Positions 3,014 through 10,236 of a stretch of DNA of 13,358 bases are shown here, piece after piece. The DNA lies in NCBI GenBank assembly GCA_023250585.1, contig JAHFAK010000041.1:3668-17025 (forward strand), written 5' to 3'. This stretch comes from Deltaproteobacteria bacterium. GTDB lineage: Bacteria; Bdellovibrionota_F; JAHFAK01. Below the pieces are notes generated by a model, which was not told where the DNA came from, ran no database searches, and saw nothing but the letters and a program-made list of their open reading frames with translations. Position 1 is the first letter of the stretch, and each line of letters opens with the position of its first letter. Both the position numbers and the translations under genes were made by a program.

Positions 3014-4609
3014 TTATTGATTATATCGTTCTTTATACATCTTTTGTAAGGCTTGTGCTTCTTCAGGATTTAAGCCTTTTTTCCAGCGATGTTCTTCGTG
3101 TGTCATGAGTTCATCAATACGCTTCCGATATTTTTCACCAAGTTCATGACTCTTTGATTCTGCAGCTTCAATAACTGCAGGGAAGAATTTATTATAGTAA
3201 TGTTTCGACACTTCATACATTCCATGCCAATGGGTATAATCTGGTCCCATCATGCTTGCACCATGACGCGCACGACGTCCTTCATGATGCCAGAGTTCAT
3301 AAAATATCCACTGAACTTCATGCTCAAATGGTGCATTTTTATTAAGCACTCCGTCACGAGTGAGATCATCCATAAATTCTTGAGCAGGTCGTGCAAATTT
3401 TTCATTGTAGAGTTCAACGAGGCTATCAAATTGCGCATAAAAATTATCGACATAGGTATTGTTATGACAATTGAGACATGCTCCTTTCATAGTATCCCGC
3501 CTTTCTTTCCAGGTAACGATGCGGAGAACTCGTCGTGCGACTTTACTAGTCTCAAGTTTTTCATTCTGAACAACTTTTTCTTCTGTTGCTACGATATCAC
3601 CAATTTTTGGAAGTGCGCGGCCTTCAGGATAATCTTCTTTATAGTTATCCTCATATATAACCATATTAAGTTTAGTGCTAATAACCGGTCGTAAGGTCCA
3701 ACTAATACGTTCACCGACATCATGACTATTACCTTTTGATACGCCCTGAGGAGTCATATAACTACCGATGTGGCATGTAGTACACGTTGCTGAAGCAGAA
3801 TAATCACGGCCTAAAACCCAATCTCCTTCTTTATCCAAATTCATTTCTTTTCTATTCGCATAAAAAGCAATGCCATGTTTTGATTCATTATACACTTCTA
3901 TTTGTGGATGATCAGGACCCATGTGGCATTTACCGCAATTTTCCGGTGATCGGGAAAGCTTTGCTTCAAATGCATGCCGTGCATGGCATGCATGACATGA
4001 TCCTTTTGACCCGTCGGGATTAAGGCGACCCATTCCGCTATTGGGCCAAGTTGTTGGATCAATGACTGGTTTACCTTCAGAACCTTGCCGAACAATCTCT
4101 CCTTTTTCATCTCGAATAAATTTAATTAATGAACCGTGACATTGCCAACATCCATTAACTGCATCGGCTTTATTATGAGGAAGACCTGCAACTTTTTCTG
4201 CGAGGATATTATCGAGACTTGCAAGTATCTCACCTGCTTTTGCATGATGGCTTCCTCTAAATTCTTCATGCTCTTTTGCATGACACGAAGCACAGTCCTT
4301 TGGAGTGACTAACGCTGAGATATAAACGCCTTCGTGTTTCCATGCATCGATTTCACCTTCTTTTGCTCTATGACAATCAATACAACCGACCCCAAGCTTT
4401 GCATGACGAGATCGTTCCCATTCCATGATAAGCGCAGGTTCTTTTGTTCGATGACATTCAACACACGATTTATTCTCTTGAGTAATAACAGCCTCAAGTT
4501 TTTTTTCAATACGCTTCATTTTCGATTCTTGATACGCAACCAGTAAAAGCGCTGCTAAAAAAAGAATTGATAAGGCAGCAATAAGATATCGTTTCATCTC
4601 TAAGCTCAT
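3014..4609 (-). CDS. Membrane-anchored octaheme cytochrome c, hydroxylamine oxidoreductase (HAO) family
   Basis: A 531-residue protein with exactly eight CxxCH haem c motifs, beginning at C49, C76, C106, C154, C205, C225, C276 and C378. The segment after haem 6 (CGKCHMGPDHPQ) and the SKHG that follows match the HAO family; D233-H234 would correspond to the active-site Asp-His pair of Nitrosomonas HAO. The fourth motif, CWQCHG (154-159), would then be the catalytic haem. After haem 8 comes the helical HAO C-terminal domain (ELWHHEGRRARHGA, then DYTHWHGMYE at 457-466). Residues 7-26 form one hydrophobic segment without a clear cleavage site, so it is probably an uncleaved anchor with the haems outside the membrane. 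AGGAG lies 6 nt before the chosen ATG. Family members oxidise hydroxylamine or hydrazine, or run as nitrite/hydroxylamine reductases; the direction here is unknown. Its place beside Rieske and cytochrome b suggests it is the c-type subunit of a quinol complex. Confidence 0.88.
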   Translation of the reverse strand: MSLEMKRYLIAALSILFLAALLLVAYQESKMKRIEKKLEAVITQENKSCVECHRTKEPALIMEWERSRHAKLGVGCIDCHRAKEGEIDAWKHEGVYISALVTPKDCASCHAKEHEEFRGSHHAKAGEILASLDNILAEKVAGLPHNKADAVNGCWQCHGSLIKFIRDEKGEIVRQGSEGKPVIDPTTWPNSGMGRLNPDGSKGSCHACHARHAFEAKLSRSPENCGKCHMGPDHPQIEVYNESKHGIAFYANRKEMNLDKEGDWVLGRDYSASATCTTCHIGSYMTPQGVSKGNSHDVGERISWTLRPVISTKLNMVIYEDNYKEDYPEGRALPKIGDIVATEEKVVQNEKLETSKVARRVLRIVTWKERRDTMKGACLNCHNNTYVDNFYAQFDSLVELYNEKFARPAQEFMDDLTRDGVLNKNAPFEHEVQWIFYELWHHEGRRARHGASMMGPDYTHWHGMYEVSKHYYNKFFPAVIEAAESKSHELGEKYRKRIDELMTHEEHRWKKGLNPEEAQALQKMYKERYNQ

Positions 4610-4624
4610 ATGACTCTCCTCATA

Positions 4625-5695
4625 TTAATGACTAAAACTTTCCCATACGGTTAAAATCATAAATCCTAAAAATCCAAAAACACCGAGCGATGTGTATACA
4701 CGATCAGAAAATCTATATTTTTTTGTGAGCCAACTCTCAATAAAAGGCCAAAAGAAAACTACAAATGCGAGCATTCCCGTAAGTACTACCGAAAGCTTGA
4801 GTGAAGTCAGTTTCAATAATCTGAAATTAAAATAAAAATACCATTCAGGTTTTATATGGAGTGGAGTTTTATTTGGGTTAGCAATTTCACCAAGCTCGAG
4901 AGGAAAGATAAGAGAACATATTGTAAGGATATACATAAGCACAATACCAACGAGCATTTCAGTGGTTATGTGATCAGGCCAAAATTTAAAATATTTTTTT
5001 TCTCTCGGCATAACTTCATTTTTAAAGTTCAATTCTTTGATTCCGTGAATGCGAATCAAAAATATATGAAGGCCAACGAGAATAAATGCTATTGTGGGAA
5101 GAAGTCCAATATGTAAAATAAAAAACCGTGTTAGGGTATTTGGACTTATTTCAGGTCCACCCCGCATGAAATTTGCAATATAGGGACCAACAAGAGGCAC
5201 GGCTTCCGCCAAGTTTGTGGCAACCGTTGCTCCCCAGAAACTCAGTTGCTCATACACGAGCGAATAGCCCGTAAATCCGAAGCTAAGCGTAACTCCTAAA
5301 AGCAATACTCCTATCATCCAATTAAGTTGCCGCGGATGTCGATACGCGCCCGTGAAATACACACGAAGCATATGTAAAAAAACAGCAATAATCATAAAAT
5401 TCGAAGACCATTTATGAAGCGAACGGATGAACCATCCAAATCGAATTTCATGGGTAATTGCTTCAATACTTTGATATGCAAATTCAGGTGAAGGAACATA
5501 ATAAAAGGTAAGCATAATTCCCGTAATAATTTGAACTATGAAAAGGTACATCACGGTTCCACCGAGACAAAACCACCATTTTTTTAAATGATACGGAATT
5601 GGTTCGGCACCTGCATGACGGAGGAGTTCCCAATTAAAAGGAATCAATTCTTTTATCATTGTACGTACACTTTGTTTTTCTTCAATGCCGTTCAT
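4625..5695 (-). CDS. Cytochrome b of a b6f/bc-type complex (b6-subunit IV fusion)
   Basis: This 356-residue membrane subunit carries the quinol-oxidising and quinone-reducing sites of a Rieske/cytochrome b complex. Haem b ligands are H94 and H108 (13 residues between) and H195 and H210 (14 residues between); the 14-residue spacing is the b6-type signature. About seven membrane segments are visible (near 43-65, 98-115, 126-145, 190-213, 245-265, 302-318, 335-353), equal to four from b6 plus three from subunit IV in one chain. The Qo-site PEWY motif is at 283-286. C43 in FCLGG aligns with the Cys that covalently binds haem ci (cn) in cytochrome b6 and in Bacillus QcrB. The ATG is 1 nt after the Rieske stop (TAA T ATG), with AAAGG inside the end of the Rieske gene as ribosome site, so the two are translationally coupled. 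Confidence 0.92.
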   Translation of the reverse strand: MNGIEEKQSVRTMIKELIPFNWELLRHAGAEPIPYHLKKWWFCLGGTVMYLFIVQIITGIMLTFYYVPSPEFAYQSIEAITHEIRFGWFIRSLHKWSSNFMIIAVFLHMLRVYFTGAYRHPRQLNWMIGVLLLGVTLSFGFTGYSLVYEQLSFWGATVATNLAEAVPLVGPYIANFMRGGPEISPNTLTRFFILHIGLLPTIAFILVGLHIFLIRIHGIKELNFKNEVMPREKKYFKFWPDHITTEMLVGIVLMYILTICSLIFPLELGEIANPNKTPLHIKPEWYFYFNFRLLKLTSLKLSVVLTGMLAFVVFFWPFIESWLTKKYRFSDRVYTSLGVFGFLGFMILTVWESFSH

Positions 5696-5696
5696 A

Positions 5697-6155
5697 TTAA
5701 ACCTTTATTTCCACATACACAGTTCCGCTTTCTTCATCGACAATTAAAGGAACAGGGTACATATTTTGATTTCCATCTTTTGGAGGTCCTGCGATTGCAA
5801 TACCGTTTTCATCAAATGCACCGCGATGACAGGGACAAAAAAACTGCTTTTCCTTGTCTTCCCAGCGGACTTTACATCCCAAGTGTGGACAGGTTGAACT
5901 AAACGCCTTGAATCCCTGTGTGTCTCTTTTAATTAAAACTTCATTTCCTTTATGATCGTAGAAACTTCTCACGCTTCCCATAGAAAATTGACCCATAGGA
6001 CCTACGAATAACTTTCGCGTAGATTTTCTTAAACTGTGTGGAAGAAGGAATGATAAACCCTCAAATGCAAAAAACCCATAGCTTATGACTATCCCAATAC
6101 CTGCAAGTACTGATGCAAACCATGTCCGACGAGTCATGAGGTTATTCTCATCCAT
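5697..6155 (-). CDS. Rieske [2Fe-2S] iron-sulfur protein of cytochrome b complex
   Basis: This 152-residue protein transfers electrons from quinol bound at cytochrome b to the c-type partner. It has both cluster-binding boxes: CPHLGC (C89, H91 ligands; C94) and CPCHRGAF (C107, H110 ligands; C109), with C94 and C109 the expected disulfide pair. Near the N-terminus TRRTWFA followed by a hydrophobic stretch is a twin-arginine signal anchor, fitting Tat export of a pre-folded FeS protein. I start it at 6155 because GGAGG (6164-6168) sits 8 nt upstream; the in-frame ATG at 6170 would overlap this ribosome site and has none of its own. It is the first gene of the minus-strand operon. No cytochrome c1 or f gene accompanies it. 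Confidence 0.93.
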   Translation of the reverse strand: MDENNLMTRRTWFASVLAGIGIVISYGFFAFEGLSFLLPHSLRKSTRKLFVGPMGQFSMGSVRSFYDHKGNEVLIKRDTQGFKAFSSTCPHLGCKVRWEDKEKQFFCPCHRGAFDENGIAIAGPPKDGNQNMYPVPLIVDEESGTVYVEIKV

Positions 6156-6185
6156 AATTACATCCTCCATGAAAATTTAGAAGGT

Positions 6186-6360: not shown

Positions 6361-6385
6361 ATTATACAGAATATAGAATCTATAT
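6338..6385. promoter_or_regulatory. Three palindromes over the abiE promoter, likely AbiEi operators
   Basis: GTATAATATTATAC (6354-6367) is a perfect 14-bp palindrome containing the -10 box and the predicted start site. ATATAGA (6371-6377) and TCTATAT (6379-6385) form a 7-bp-arm palindrome that runs into the abiEi start codon. ATAGATCCTAT (6338-6348), in the promoter spacer, matches the core of that palindrome (ATAGAATCTAT, 6373-6383) at 9 of 11 positions, 35 bp away. AbiEi-family antitoxins are known to repress their own promoter through inverted repeats, so these are the best candidates. Confidence 0.55.
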
Positions 6386-6965
6386 GAAGATAGATGAAAT
6401 AATAAAAAAACTTCTCTCCTTAAATAAAAAAATTTTTAGTCTTCTCGATTTGAAGAAATTGCTCAGCATATCGTCAGATAATACCACGTATAAAACATTA
6501 GAAAAACTCGTTACAAAGGAAATTGTTATTCGTCTCAAAAATGGAATTTATGCATGTAATCTTGCTATGCCCAATGAATTTGAGATTGCTCAGCATCTTT
6601 CAGCTCCTTCATATATTTCTTGCGAAACAGCACTCAATTTTTATGGAATACTTTCTCAGTTTCCCTATACAATAACTTCAGTGACTTTAAAAAAATCACA
6701 AAAATTTAATGTACTTCAAAAAGAGTACGACTTTGCGCATATCCAAAAAAATCTATTTTGGGGTTATTACAAAGAAGATAATTTTCTTATTGCATCCCCA
6801 GAAAAAGCCCTGCTCGATCAAATATATCTTGCTTCAAAAGGATTTCGAACGCTCGATCTGAGTGAGCTTGATTATTCAAAAATCGACAAAAAAAAATTAT
6901 ATACCTATATAAAAAAAATTAGCTATAAACCTTTTGTGCGTTATTGTAAAATGCTCAAAATATGA
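6384..6965 (+). CDS. abiEi: AbiEi-type antitoxin / transcriptional repressor of a type IV TA system
   Basis: A 193-residue protein with the layout of AbiEi antitoxins: a winged-helix N-terminal domain (about 1-57, ending in the characteristic NGIYA at 53-57), then YISCETALNFYGI (77-89) and ASPEKALLDQIY (137-148), motifs seen across the family. In characterised members the protein represses its own operon and counters the toxin without forming a stable complex with it. The start follows a consensus promoter by about 17 nt, with no ribosome site, so translation is nearly leaderless. The stop overlaps the abiEii start by 4 nt (ATGA). The coding sequence is very AT-rich, with many A and T runs, more so than the flanking housekeeping genes, which suits acquisition as a mobile defence module. 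Confidence 0.85.
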   Translation: MKIDEIIKKLLSLNKKIFSLLDLKKLLSISSDNTTYKTLEKLVTKEIVIRLKNGIYACNLAMPNEFEIAQHLSAPSYISCETALNFYGILSQFPYTITSVTLKKSQKFNVLQKEYDFAHIQKNLFWGYYKEDNFLIASPEKALLDQIYLASKGFRTLDLSELDYSKIDKKKLYTYIKKISYKPFVRYCKMLKI

Positions 6966-7732
6966 TTACACAAGAACAAATAAAAGAGCTTGCAAAAAAA
7001 TTTCAGATCGATGAATTTTCAATTATGAGAGAATATATTCAGCTTCTTTTTCTCAAATATCTCTATGAACAGAAAAAAAGTGAAAACATATTCTTTAAAG
7101 GCGGAACTGCTATACACTTACTCTATCATTCATTTCGTTTTTCTGAAGATTTAGATTTTACTGCATTAGAGATCCCACAAAAAATTGAAAAATTAATTAA
7201 TGAAATCATGATTCGCCTTGAAAAAGAGATCGGAGATTTGAGTCTCTCTGATAATGCTTCTAAGGACAATAGTTTATCAAAAACAATCAAATATCAAGGT
7301 GGTTTTAAATATCCGTTAACTATAAGACTTGATTTCTCATTTCGTGAAAAGCCGCTGACTCGTGTAATGAGCCCTCTCGAAACTGCATTTCCTATCTTAC
7401 CGTATCCACTAGTTGTTCACATTGATAGCGAGGAACTAATGGCAGAAAAAGTTCGCGCACTCATTATGCGAAAAAAAGGCAGAGACCTCTTTGATCTATG
7501 GTTTCTCCTTTCAAAAAATATTCTCATACGAGAAGATTTCATGGATAGCAAAATGAACTATTACAAAAAAAAGTATACCGTTAAAGATGTTATTACTGCT
7601 ATTAATACTTTTGATGTTAAAGAAGTTGAAAGAGATTTAGGAAAATTCCTTCCGAAAAATTACCGATCCATTATTAAAGATTTTAAACAAAAGGTTTTAG
7701 AAAAAATGAATGCATTCAATAAATTGTCCTAA
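6962..7732 (+). CDS. abiEii: AbiEii-type nucleotidyltransferase toxin
   Basis: A 256-residue protein of the AbiEii/toxin nucleotidyltransferase family. Visible motifs are GGTA (47-50) followed by SEDLDF (61-66, with metal-binding D63 and D65), a third acidic residue D124 in IRLDFS, EELMAEKVRAL (157-167, K163) and RDLFDLW (174-180). Characterised members are bacteriostatic; related MenT toxins add nucleotides to tRNA acceptor ends. All catalytic residues appear intact, so the toxin is probably active. Translation is coupled to the antitoxin through the ATGA overlap, and there is no separate ribosome site. The gene is convergent with rimI. AbiE pairs provide phage abortive infection or stabilise DNA; which applies here is unknown. 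Confidence 0.88.
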   Translation: MITQEQIKELAKKFQIDEFSIMREYIQLLFLKYLYEQKKSENIFFKGGTAIHLLYHSFRFSEDLDFTALEIPQKIEKLINEIMIRLEKEIGDLSLSDNASKDNSLSKTIKYQGGFKYPLTIRLDFSFREKPLTRVMSPLETAFPILPYPLVVHIDSEELMAEKVRALIMRKKGRDLFDLWFLLSKNILIREDFMDSKMNYYKKKYTVKDVITAINTFDVKEVERDLGKFLPKNYRSIIKDFKQKVLEKMNAFNKLS

Positions 7733-8907: not shown

Positions 8908-10200
8908 TTATCGGCCATGTCTTTCGTCATAATCGGCGATCATGTATTCTTTTAAGGCATCAAAGATTGAGATACTTTTTCCTTGCGCGATATTTTCAAT
9001 GTTTCTATAGTTGCTTAAAGCATCAGATGATCCAAAAAGGTGATCGTTGGAAGAATCACCTTGTATGGTAATCGGTATGCCCATTTTTTTTAGTTGTTGC
9101 AGAAACTTATCGGGCACCTTATCCCGTATATATACCTCACGAAAACGTATAAATTCAATTAGTGTTACAAGACCTTGCGTAAGCACGGGATTTTTATTTT
9201 GTCGACATTCATTTACAAGATTAGGTTTTGTAATTTCAAGTCGCTTCATGAGCTCCGCTAATCTTTCAGATGCTTCAGCTGCTACACCATAGCGATACAG
9301 CATATTAATTATCTCAGCAGTATCTGTAAATAATGGTTGGCCACCGACGAGTGGATTCCTTATGATCATTTTCTCGATTGCAAGTGCTTGCAGCATTCTT
9401 TCATTGATAGCAGGGAATTCGACTAATGCACCTAAAACTGCAGGGTCTCCTACAACAAGATAATTTCCTTCAGCATGAGGAATCAGTACATAGGGAATGT
9501 GGAGTTGAAAAAGCTTATGTTGTCTTTCTGTATCACCATAGATAATCAAAGCATGCTGTTTAAAATCGAGAAGCTGTGGTGATTTAATTACCCACCCCGT
9601 TTTTCCTTCAAGATTTTGAACGAAAGCAAAAGCACCTCGATCATCCAAAAGTTCTACCACTTGAGATTGAGTCCGCATTTCCGTAGCATCTCTGGGGGTG
9701 TTCCATGATTGCCTTTCCCAAACTTTCAAAATCATCGGAGAATGAGATTCTTTTGCTTTCGAGAAATTTCCATCAATAACGATACGATAGAAATCTCTCT
9801 GGTATACACCTTCAGGTAGTATGAGTGTTCTTCCCTTCGTCAGATTCTTCAAGTAATACGTCTTATTTCCTCGATCATCAGAAGTTACTCGAGCCAGCAC
9901 TAAGATATCAATGATCGGGTCATTAAGTAATTCTAATGCTTCTCCATAATTAATATATACGACTATTTCTCTCTTTTTCATTTCCCGCAATGTTTCGAGC
10001 CTTATAAAATGAGCATTACCGTATTCGCTAATAATTTTTTCAATTTTTCGCGAAACAAGGGGATTCAGACTTTCTTTTGGGCTCCCTGAGTTATAAAACC
10101 TACTCATAAAAGAAAAAATATTGCAGGGAATAAGCGAGTACGCAGGTGTAGTAATACTTACCATCAAAAAAATTATCATCTTGAAAGAAATTCGGTCCAT
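8908..10200 (-). CDS. Secreted protein of unknown function with SH3-like segment
   Basis: I do not recognise the family. From the ATG at 10200 the product is 430 residues and begins with a signal peptide (MDRISFK, then IIFLMVSITTPAYS, cleavage near residue 22). The frame stays open to an ATG at 10263, but that start overlaps serS and would bury the signal peptide, so I prefer 10200; GGGAG lies 10 nt upstream. Residues about 179-207 (VVELLDDRGAFAFVQ, then EGKTGWV) look like a bacterial SH3-type fold, which often binds cell-wall peptides. The C-terminal half is helical and charged. The gene is divergent from serS, 36 bp away, and heads the SurA-N-like/rimI cluster. Its apparent stop at 8910-8908 may result from a frameshift, because another frame continues to 8825 and ends 1 nt before the next gene. 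Confidence 0.7.
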   Translation of the reverse strand: MDRISFKMIIFLMVSITTPAYSLIPCNIFSFMSRFYNSGSPKESLNPLVSRKIEKIISEYGNAHFIRLETLREMKKREIVVYINYGEALELLNDPIIDILVLARVTSDDRGNKTYYLKNLTKGRTLILPEGVYQRDFYRIVIDGNFSKAKESHSPMILKVWERQSWNTPRDATEMRTQSQVVELLDDRGAFAFVQNLEGKTGWVIKSPQLLDFKQHALIIYGDTERQHKLFQLHIPYVLIPHAEGNYLVVGDPAVLGALVEFPAINERMLQALAIEKMIIRNPLVGGQPLFTDTAEIINMLYRYGVAAEASERLAELMKRLEITKPNLVNECRQNKNPVLTQGLVTLIEFIRFREVYIRDKVPDKFLQQLKKMGIPITIQGDSSNDHLFGSSDALSNYRNIENIAQGKSISIFDALKEYMIADYDERHGR

Positions 10201-10209
10201 GGCTAATAT
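10181..10209 (+). promoter_or_regulatory. serS promoter
   Basis: TTGAAA at 10181-10186 and TAATAT at 10204-10209 are separated by 17 nt, with a predicted start near 10216 and a leader of about 20 nt carrying AAGGAG (10225-10230). It lies inside the signal-peptide region of the divergent gene. There is no space for a T-box leader. Confidence 0.55.
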
Positions 10210-10236
10210 ACTCCCACTAAATATAAGGAGACCTCT

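Follow-up and report, generated by a model that had tools for sequence, protein, structure and literature searches.

A recurrent Rieske, cytochrome b and octahaem cytochrome gene trio as a candidate quinol:N-oxide reductase complex

Introduction

What takes the place of cytochrome c1 or f when a Rieske/cytochrome b complex is encoded together with an octahaem cytochrome? This question is raised by a 13,358-nt stretch of DNA (hereafter the window; positions 3,668 to 17,025 of contig JAHFAK010000041.1, assembly GCA_023250585.1) from a Deltaproteobacteria bacterium, in which genes for a Rieske protein, a cytochrome b and an octahaem cytochrome of the HAO superfamily form one operon (hereafter the trio). 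We lean modestly towards the view that the three products form one membrane complex, a quinol:N-oxide reductase in which an anchored octahaem reductase of the epsilonHao type replaces cytochrome c1/f. The genome is a draft (2.24 Mb, 164 contigs, 97% complete), and absences from it are weak evidence. Among the 59 genomes searched as relatives (its own included), one belongs to the same class and the others share only the domain, which marks a deeply isolated lineage among these. Relatives of the octahaem protein were sought in one genome per species, yielding 432 matches, and gene partners and N-terminal anchors were surveyed for the best 80 of these.

Organization of the operon

The trio occupies the minus strand from 6170 to 3014, with gaps of 1 and 15 nt between the genes, which follow one another in the order given below.

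5697..6170, minus strand: Rieske [2Fe-2S] protein, 157 amino acids (aa), PF00355 (2.4e-10), with a twin-arginine N-terminus (TRRTWF) and one hydrophobic helix
4625..5695, minus strand: cytochrome b, 356 aa, PF00033 (Cytochrome_B, 9e-54) and PF00032 (Cytochrom_B_C, 1.2e-9)
3014..4609, minus strand: octahaem cytochrome c, 531 aa, HAO superfamily, epsilonHao-like, Multi-haem_cyto PF13447 (7.6e-20), eight CxxCH motifs

A Rieske [2Fe-2S] protein is encoded together with a cytochrome b, as defines the class of bc1/b6f-type complexes. An earlier sequence-only reading of this DNA had described three tightly coupled genes and an anchored octahaem protein carrying a GPDHPQ motif, and both descriptions were confirmed. 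Two of its details were amended. The Rieske gene does encode a Tat-type protein, but the upper end that had been placed at 6155 is an in-frame downstream ATG, and the gene starts at 6170. The cytochrome b, which had been called b6-type, has the b6-like H-x14-H spacing and the cysteine of WWFCLGG but is not a bare four-helix b6: a b6-like part is fused to a subunit-IV-like part in a single chain, whose best matches in the Protein Data Bank (PDB) are cytochromes b6.

No cytochrome f gene is seen in the operon. In the whole genome, only one cytochrome b and one PF13447 protein are encoded, and no member of the cytochrome c1 family, and hence no c1 partner, was found elsewhere, the genome-wide search having covered the c1 family but not cytochrome f or dihaem types. 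The absence of a c1 gene stated in the earlier reading is thus borne out across the genome for this family.

Recurrence of the trio

The neighbourhood search for such triplets that had been proposed earlier found the same gene order in 22 public loci (among the best 80 of the 432 matches) and in genome G017, which together with the window make up a set of 24 trios from at least ten phyla. In the 22 loci, the octahaem gene is preceded on the same strand by a relative of the window cytochrome b and, where the contig is long enough, by one of the window Rieske protein. The metagenome-assembled genomes concerned are labelled Acidobacteriota, Ignavibacteriota, Latescibacterota, KSB1, Deltaproteobacteria/Myxococcota, Gemmatimonadota, Calditrichota, Binatota, Zixibacteria, Neomarinimicrobiota and an FCB bacterium. 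The Rieske protein of the window is 41-54% identical to those of other trios, and the G017 trio is more distant (about 50, 47 and 41% identity in the octahaem protein, cytochrome b and Rieske protein, respectively). The gap between the cytochrome b and octahaem genes is 8-41 nt in all trios, and that between the Rieske and cytochrome b genes ranges mostly from a short overlap to 20 nt, apart from a single 214-nt value, for which the start was taken from the alignment rather than the annotation.

Because the same order recurs across at least ten phyla, the trio is regarded as a conserved unit and not a chance arrangement. Protein distances of the Rieske protein and cytochrome b are correlated with those of the octahaem protein (Spearman 0.62 and 0.74, respectively; 0.46 and 0.60 after thinning; permutation p 0.001-0.002), which fits a co-inherited unit. 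This conservation supports the earlier proposal that an HAO-family octahaem protein stands in for c1 or f in a compact Rieske/b complex. A conserved gene for a protein of 203-223 aa was also observed 3' of the octahaem gene in seven trios (L004, at 9612-10229, L005, L008, L012, L030, L051 and L060); the L012 copy has no Pfam match, the product may be a fourth partner, and the gene was not seen in the window.

The non-trio remainder of the best 80 relatives are mostly 62-74% identical to the window octahaem protein over the matched part and include proteins of Brocadia, Kuenenia hertensis, Scalindua, Jettenia, Elusimicrobia, Verrucomicrobia and Zixibacteria. No cytochrome b or Rieske gene close to those of the window was found in their stored flanks, some of the contigs ending too near to tell. 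Five relatives from anammox and other planctomycetes (L018, L020, L029, L013 and L016) are about 70% identical, have lipobox-like N-termini and have no Rieske/b genes nearby. Other partners were found in L080, L081 and L083 (Campylobacterota and a deltaproteobacterium), where the octahaem gene lies with genes for NrfC/NrfD-like proteins and a tetrahaem cytochrome, and on two plasmids of sulfate-reducer relatives, where it lies with a gene for a NapC/NirT cytochrome. With Rieske/b, NrfC/NrfD-like and NapC/NirT proteins, the octahaem module has quinol-oxidising partners of at least three kinds. In a tree built from 61 octahaem proteins, four changes of the trio label are needed, of which well-supported branches force at least two; basal branching of the main clade is not resolved in this tree, and the G017 protein is weakly placed.

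The membrane anchor

The linked octahaem proteins share an N-terminal segment with the consensus M[TS]L..KR..VA.LSFLFLA.LLVVA..ES.

4526..4597, minus strand: membrane anchor at the N-terminus of the octahaem protein (KRYLIAALSILFLAALLLVAYQES), carried by 24/24 trio proteins

The distance from the anchor to the first haem is exactly 22 residues in 23 of the 24 proteins and 24 residues in G017. Unlinked or otherwise-linked relatives carry signal-peptide-like or lipobox-like N-termini, and the trio anchor sequence occurs in none of those that could be read (the N-termini of two relatives were unreadable). Judged from sequence, the anchor is the strongest single sign that the linked octahaem protein is an integral subunit. 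The sequence-only reading had named an octahaem gene unlinked in close relatives as evidence against a complex. Such relatives, 65-72% identical, do exist, but they lack the membrane anchor, which argues for a complex in the linked forms and not against it.

Fold and type of the octahaem protein

In a phmmer search of the PDB, the octahaem protein matched the octahaem cytochrome of Ignicoccus hospitalis (4qo5) at 3.5e-43 and HAOs at about 1e-13. Its AlphaFold2 model, for whose input set two plasmid-derived rows were left out, gave a Z score of 17.3 to 4qo5 and of 11-13 to HAO, HOX, HDH and the reducing HAO-like protein of Kuenenia, the next unrelated row scoring 7.2. On the strength of this model, the protein is assigned to the HAO fold. 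The residues that bear on its type are as follows.

3908..3913, minus strand: Asp-His pair of the active site in GPDHPQ, next to the catalytic haem; GPDHP is invariant among 40 relatives
3227..3229, minus strand: Trp461 (W460 when the start Met is not counted), at the position that the cross-link Tyr holds in HAO; invariant in a 35-row alignment of octahaem proteins (A2)
3251..3253, minus strand: Met453 (M452 without the start Met), eight residues before the Trp; invariant in A2 and the second epsilonHao mark

The Asp-His of GPDHPQ aligns with the corresponding residues of HAO. Although 4qo5 is the best match among solved structures in both sequence and fold, it has DPDVPA where the window family has GPDHPQ and thus lacks the active-site His; we know of no Rieske/b linkage of the Ignicoccus protein. 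A Trp at the position of the cross-link Tyr together with a Met eight residues earlier is the mark of the reductive epsilonHao (PMC8940962). The cross-link place was set here by this published pattern rather than by a residue-level alignment with Nitrosomonas HAO, and the Tyr of oxidative HAO is absent there. A range alignment of model residue 489 with residue 495 of 1fgj is consistent with a Trp in the place of the cross-link Tyr; the C-terminal segment aligned alone to PDB chains gave chance matches only. By these sequence marks, the protein is of the reductive epsilonHao type.

An oxidative direction, in which the octahaem protein would oxidise hydroxylamine or other reduced nitrogen and the Rieske/b part would run in reverse or receive electrons, is suggested by membership of the HAO family, since the HAO enzymes of nitrifiers oxidise hydroxylamine. 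Identity as an oxidative HAO was rejected on the Trp in place of the cross-link (P460) Tyr, and as the Tyr is tied to oxidative function (PMC12758564), we hold this direction to be very improbable. The earlier suggestion that energy might be conserved from reduced nitrogen finds no support in view of the same residues, the Trp and the Met eight residues before it (PMC8940962).

Rieske and cytochrome b residues

Residue motifs of the other two proteins were read in 21 trios.

5874..5891, minus strand: Rieske cluster box 1, CPHLGC, invariant in 21/21 trios
5814..5837, minus strand: Rieske cluster box 2, CPCHRGAF, with Gly and Phe where high-potential Rieske proteins carry Ser and Tyr
5567..5569, minus strand: Cys43 of WWFCLGG in cytochrome b, kept in 19/21 trios (Ala in L063 and L075)

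Box 2 follows the pattern CPCH.[GA].F in every one of the 21 trios, with neither Ser nor Tyr. In the cytochrome b, the H-x14-H of the fourth helix and the PEWY/F motif of the quinol site (PEWY in the window) are likewise present in 21/21, and the haem-b His pair of the second helix is visible in the alignment. Cys43 presumably matches the cysteine that binds haem c_n (c_i) in cytochrome b6. In Rieske proteins, the Ser and Tyr beside the cluster raise its potential, their loss costing about 130 and 65 mV in a roughly additive manner, and potentials below 200 mV go with low-potential quinones, although Kustd1480 had a higher potential than its residues suggested (PMC12954380). As the trio proteins have neither residue, a low potential is predicted, and the trio would be a low-potential, menaquinol-type complex.

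Proposed mechanism

In the preferred reading, menaquinol would be oxidised at the PEWY quinol site of cytochrome b. One electron would travel by way of the low-potential Rieske cluster directly into the octahaem chain and reach the open catalytic haem, which has the Asp-His pair beside it and at which nitrite, and perhaps NO or hydroxylamine as well, would be reduced; ammonium or hydroxylamine is the probable product. The second electron would return to the quinone pool through the b haems and probably haem c_n, making the turnover electrogenic.

Nitrite ammonification by NrfHA is not known to couple quinol oxidation to energy conservation. A further, more tentative proposal, to which we give somewhat less than even chances, is that the trio is a self-contained electrogenic quinol:nitrite reductase whose obligate, anchored c-type subunit is itself the terminal reductase and which, unlike NrfHA, conserves energy through a Q-cycle. 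It would then be an old module present in at least ten phyla, and the free-standing, NapC-linked and NrfD-linked epsilonHao proteins would be relatives in which the quinol-oxidising partner has been exchanged.

Comparison with known systems

The earlier reading had pointed to Kuenenia as the nearest system, whereas the closest published match is Cabys_2558-2557-2556 of Caldithrix abyssi, which encode a Rieske protein, a cytochrome b and an epsilonHao, and for which electron flow from Rieske/b to epsilonHao, direct or via NapM, was proposed (Front Microbiol 2017, PMC5317091). As far as can be judged from the published description, on which the comparison is based, Caldithrix resembles the window: its three genes are consecutive, with the same order by number, and its genome has an ACIII but no canonical bc1. 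It differs in that its trio adjoins a Nap nitrate-reductase cluster, with NapM as the thought mediator, whereas no Nap was found in the window genome.

In Kuenenia stuttgartiensis, the Rieske/b complex R/b-3 (kuste4569-4574) comigrates with an octahaem protein of the HAO-like kind, for which nitrite reduction has been proposed (PMC12954380, PMC12485887). R/b-3 comprises six genes, among them those for a separate subunit IV, a further c-type multihaem subunit and an NAD(P) oxidoreductase, none of which the window trio has. Its Rieske protein, Kuste4569, carries Ser and Tyr and has a potential of +303 mV (PMC12954380), whereas the trio proteins lack both residues, and Kuste4574 is said to be closely homologous to HAOr (kustc0458; 6h5l), itself only distantly related to the window octahaem protein. 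Given the extra subunits, the high-potential Rieske protein and the differently related octahaem protein, R/b-3 was rejected as the parent system.

The epsilonHao of Campylobacterota (reverse-HURM; Nautilia, PMC3701875) shares the Trp/Met mark and the Asp-His with the window protein and serves quinol-linked nitrite reduction there, but it is secreted, and its donor is a NapC/NrfH-type cytochrome or, in L080 and L083, NrfC/NrfD-like proteins. Cytochrome b6f shares the b6-like His spacing, the haem c_n cysteine and the subunit-IV-like part; in the window, however, b6 and subunit IV are fused, and the octahaem protein stands instead of cytochrome f.

Nitrate-reductase-type genes also adjoin the trio in L006, L009 and L012, the last with NapD in addition. 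These genes favour an N-oxide as the substrate, and a quinol:N-oxide reductase is the simplest account of the function. Sulfite or tetrathionate is reduced by other multihaem members of the fold family, and in Tharpellota an HAO-family protein has been proposed to reduce sulfur compounds (PMC9213671), so the acceptor could be a sulfur oxyanion or another non-nitrogen compound. The nitrate-reductase-type genes in these three loci and in Caldithrix speak against this, as do the HAO-family proteins of Campylobacterota, which are reported to reduce nitrite to ammonium in vitro (PMC9213671), and a non-nitrogen substrate is considered highly unlikely.

Genome context and neighbouring genes

The genome encodes one haem-copper oxidase of the CtaD type (aa3) with its other subunits, NuoG with further complex I genes, and an ACIII/Qrc-like gene set. 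Since both an ACIII/Qrc-like complex and a cytochrome c oxidase are present, the Rieske/b/octahaem complex need not serve oxygen respiration. The octahaem subunit might nevertheless be an electron wire only, i.e. a multihaem stand-in for c1/f that feeds a soluble cytochrome c and the aa3 oxidase or other periplasmic enzymes. This would accord with the CtaD-type oxidase, with the presence of a gene for a monohaem cytochrome c on the contig of the trio and with Kuenenia R/b-2, which has a multihaem c subunit without known catalysis (PMC12954380). A relay, however, would not need the Asp-His and epsilonHao marks, which are invariant even in free-standing relatives, and the ACIII/Qrc-like complex is available to serve the oxidase; a mere wire is therefore rather improbable.

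Apart from the octahaem gene, which is itself the NrfA match of the genome, no NrfA, Hcp, Cu-oxidase_3 (NirK) or molybdopterin nitrate reductase was found in the draft, and a NirS-like match on C44 is weak and below the curated cut-off. Of the genes whose search had been advised (nrfA, nirK/S and oxidases), an oxidase was thus found, nrfA and nirK were not, and the NirS-like match stayed below threshold. Two further Rieske matches, C107 and C69, were rejected as respiratory, one being a 101-aa soluble ferredoxin-like protein and the other lying in a radical-SAM/glycosyltransferase region.

The neighbours of the trio in the window and on the contig include NrdJ, hemerythrin and AbiE genes and others; the cluster contains no additional genes for a multihaem c subunit or an NAD(P) oxidoreductase. 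The gene 16 nt downstream of the octahaem gene encodes the B12-dependent ribonucleotide reductase NrdJ, which is probably an unrelated neighbour because other genes occupy that place in other trio loci. Just beyond nrdJ, at 237-689 on the plus strand, lies a hemerythrin-domain gene whose product is weakly similar to RIC/YtfE iron-sulfur repair proteins. An AbiEi/AbiEii type IV toxin-antitoxin pair (6384-7732, plus strand; PADLOC 8e-36 and 1.3e-35) adjoins the Rieske operon on the opposite strand, and a CRP/FNR-type regulator is encoded further along the contig. Just outside the window, on contig C95 (L103, 170-2632), a cluster encodes two cytochromes, one a NapC/NirT tetrahaem protein and the other a monohaem cytochrome c, together with a 496-aa protein that has one CxxCH, no Pfam match and a masked stretch.

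The trio could also serve detoxification rather than respiration, as a sink in which quinol would drive the removal of environmental NO, hydroxylamine or nitrite. The hemerythrin gene, the CRP/FNR-type regulator and the failure to find nitrate reductase, NrfA or Hcp in the genome fit such a role, but a whole Rieske/b complex would be an expensive sink, and in other phyla respiration is indicated by the Nap-type genes next to the trio. Detoxification is judged unlikely, yet it is the rival hardest to exclude because of the hemerythrin gene and the missing nitrate reductase.

Several points weigh against a quinol:N-oxide reductase complex. The octahaem model is of moderate quality (mean pLDDT 73.5) and was built without haems. 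Close octahaem relatives occur without Rieske/b genes. The test of independence between anchor and linkage yielded only two supported contrasts, and although both are concordant, no significance is claimed for the association because two contrasts cannot reach it. As no nitrate reductase was found in the genome, nitrite would have to be supplied from outside, and the literature searched yielded no biochemical work on any trio member.

Significance

The gene order has been in print once (Caldithrix, 2017), and a larger, looser counterpart is known in Kuenenia. New here are its spread over ten or more phyla, the anchor specific to the trio, the lack of both potential-raising Rieske residues in every trio examined and the view of epsilonHao as a multi-partner module; no paper on these four points was found in the literature searched, which left most subscription journals out of reach. 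If the reductase is indeed a subunit of a Q-cycle complex, protons would be pumped at the quinol step, and there would no longer be a dividing line between 'complex III' and 'terminal reductase'. With three genes that can be expressed, the trio would also provide a simple version of the anammox complexes, which are much larger and of debated role. It would further mark a likely nitrite-reducing capacity in many uncultured phyla, in which these genes would be annotated only as cytochrome b and multihaem cytochrome.

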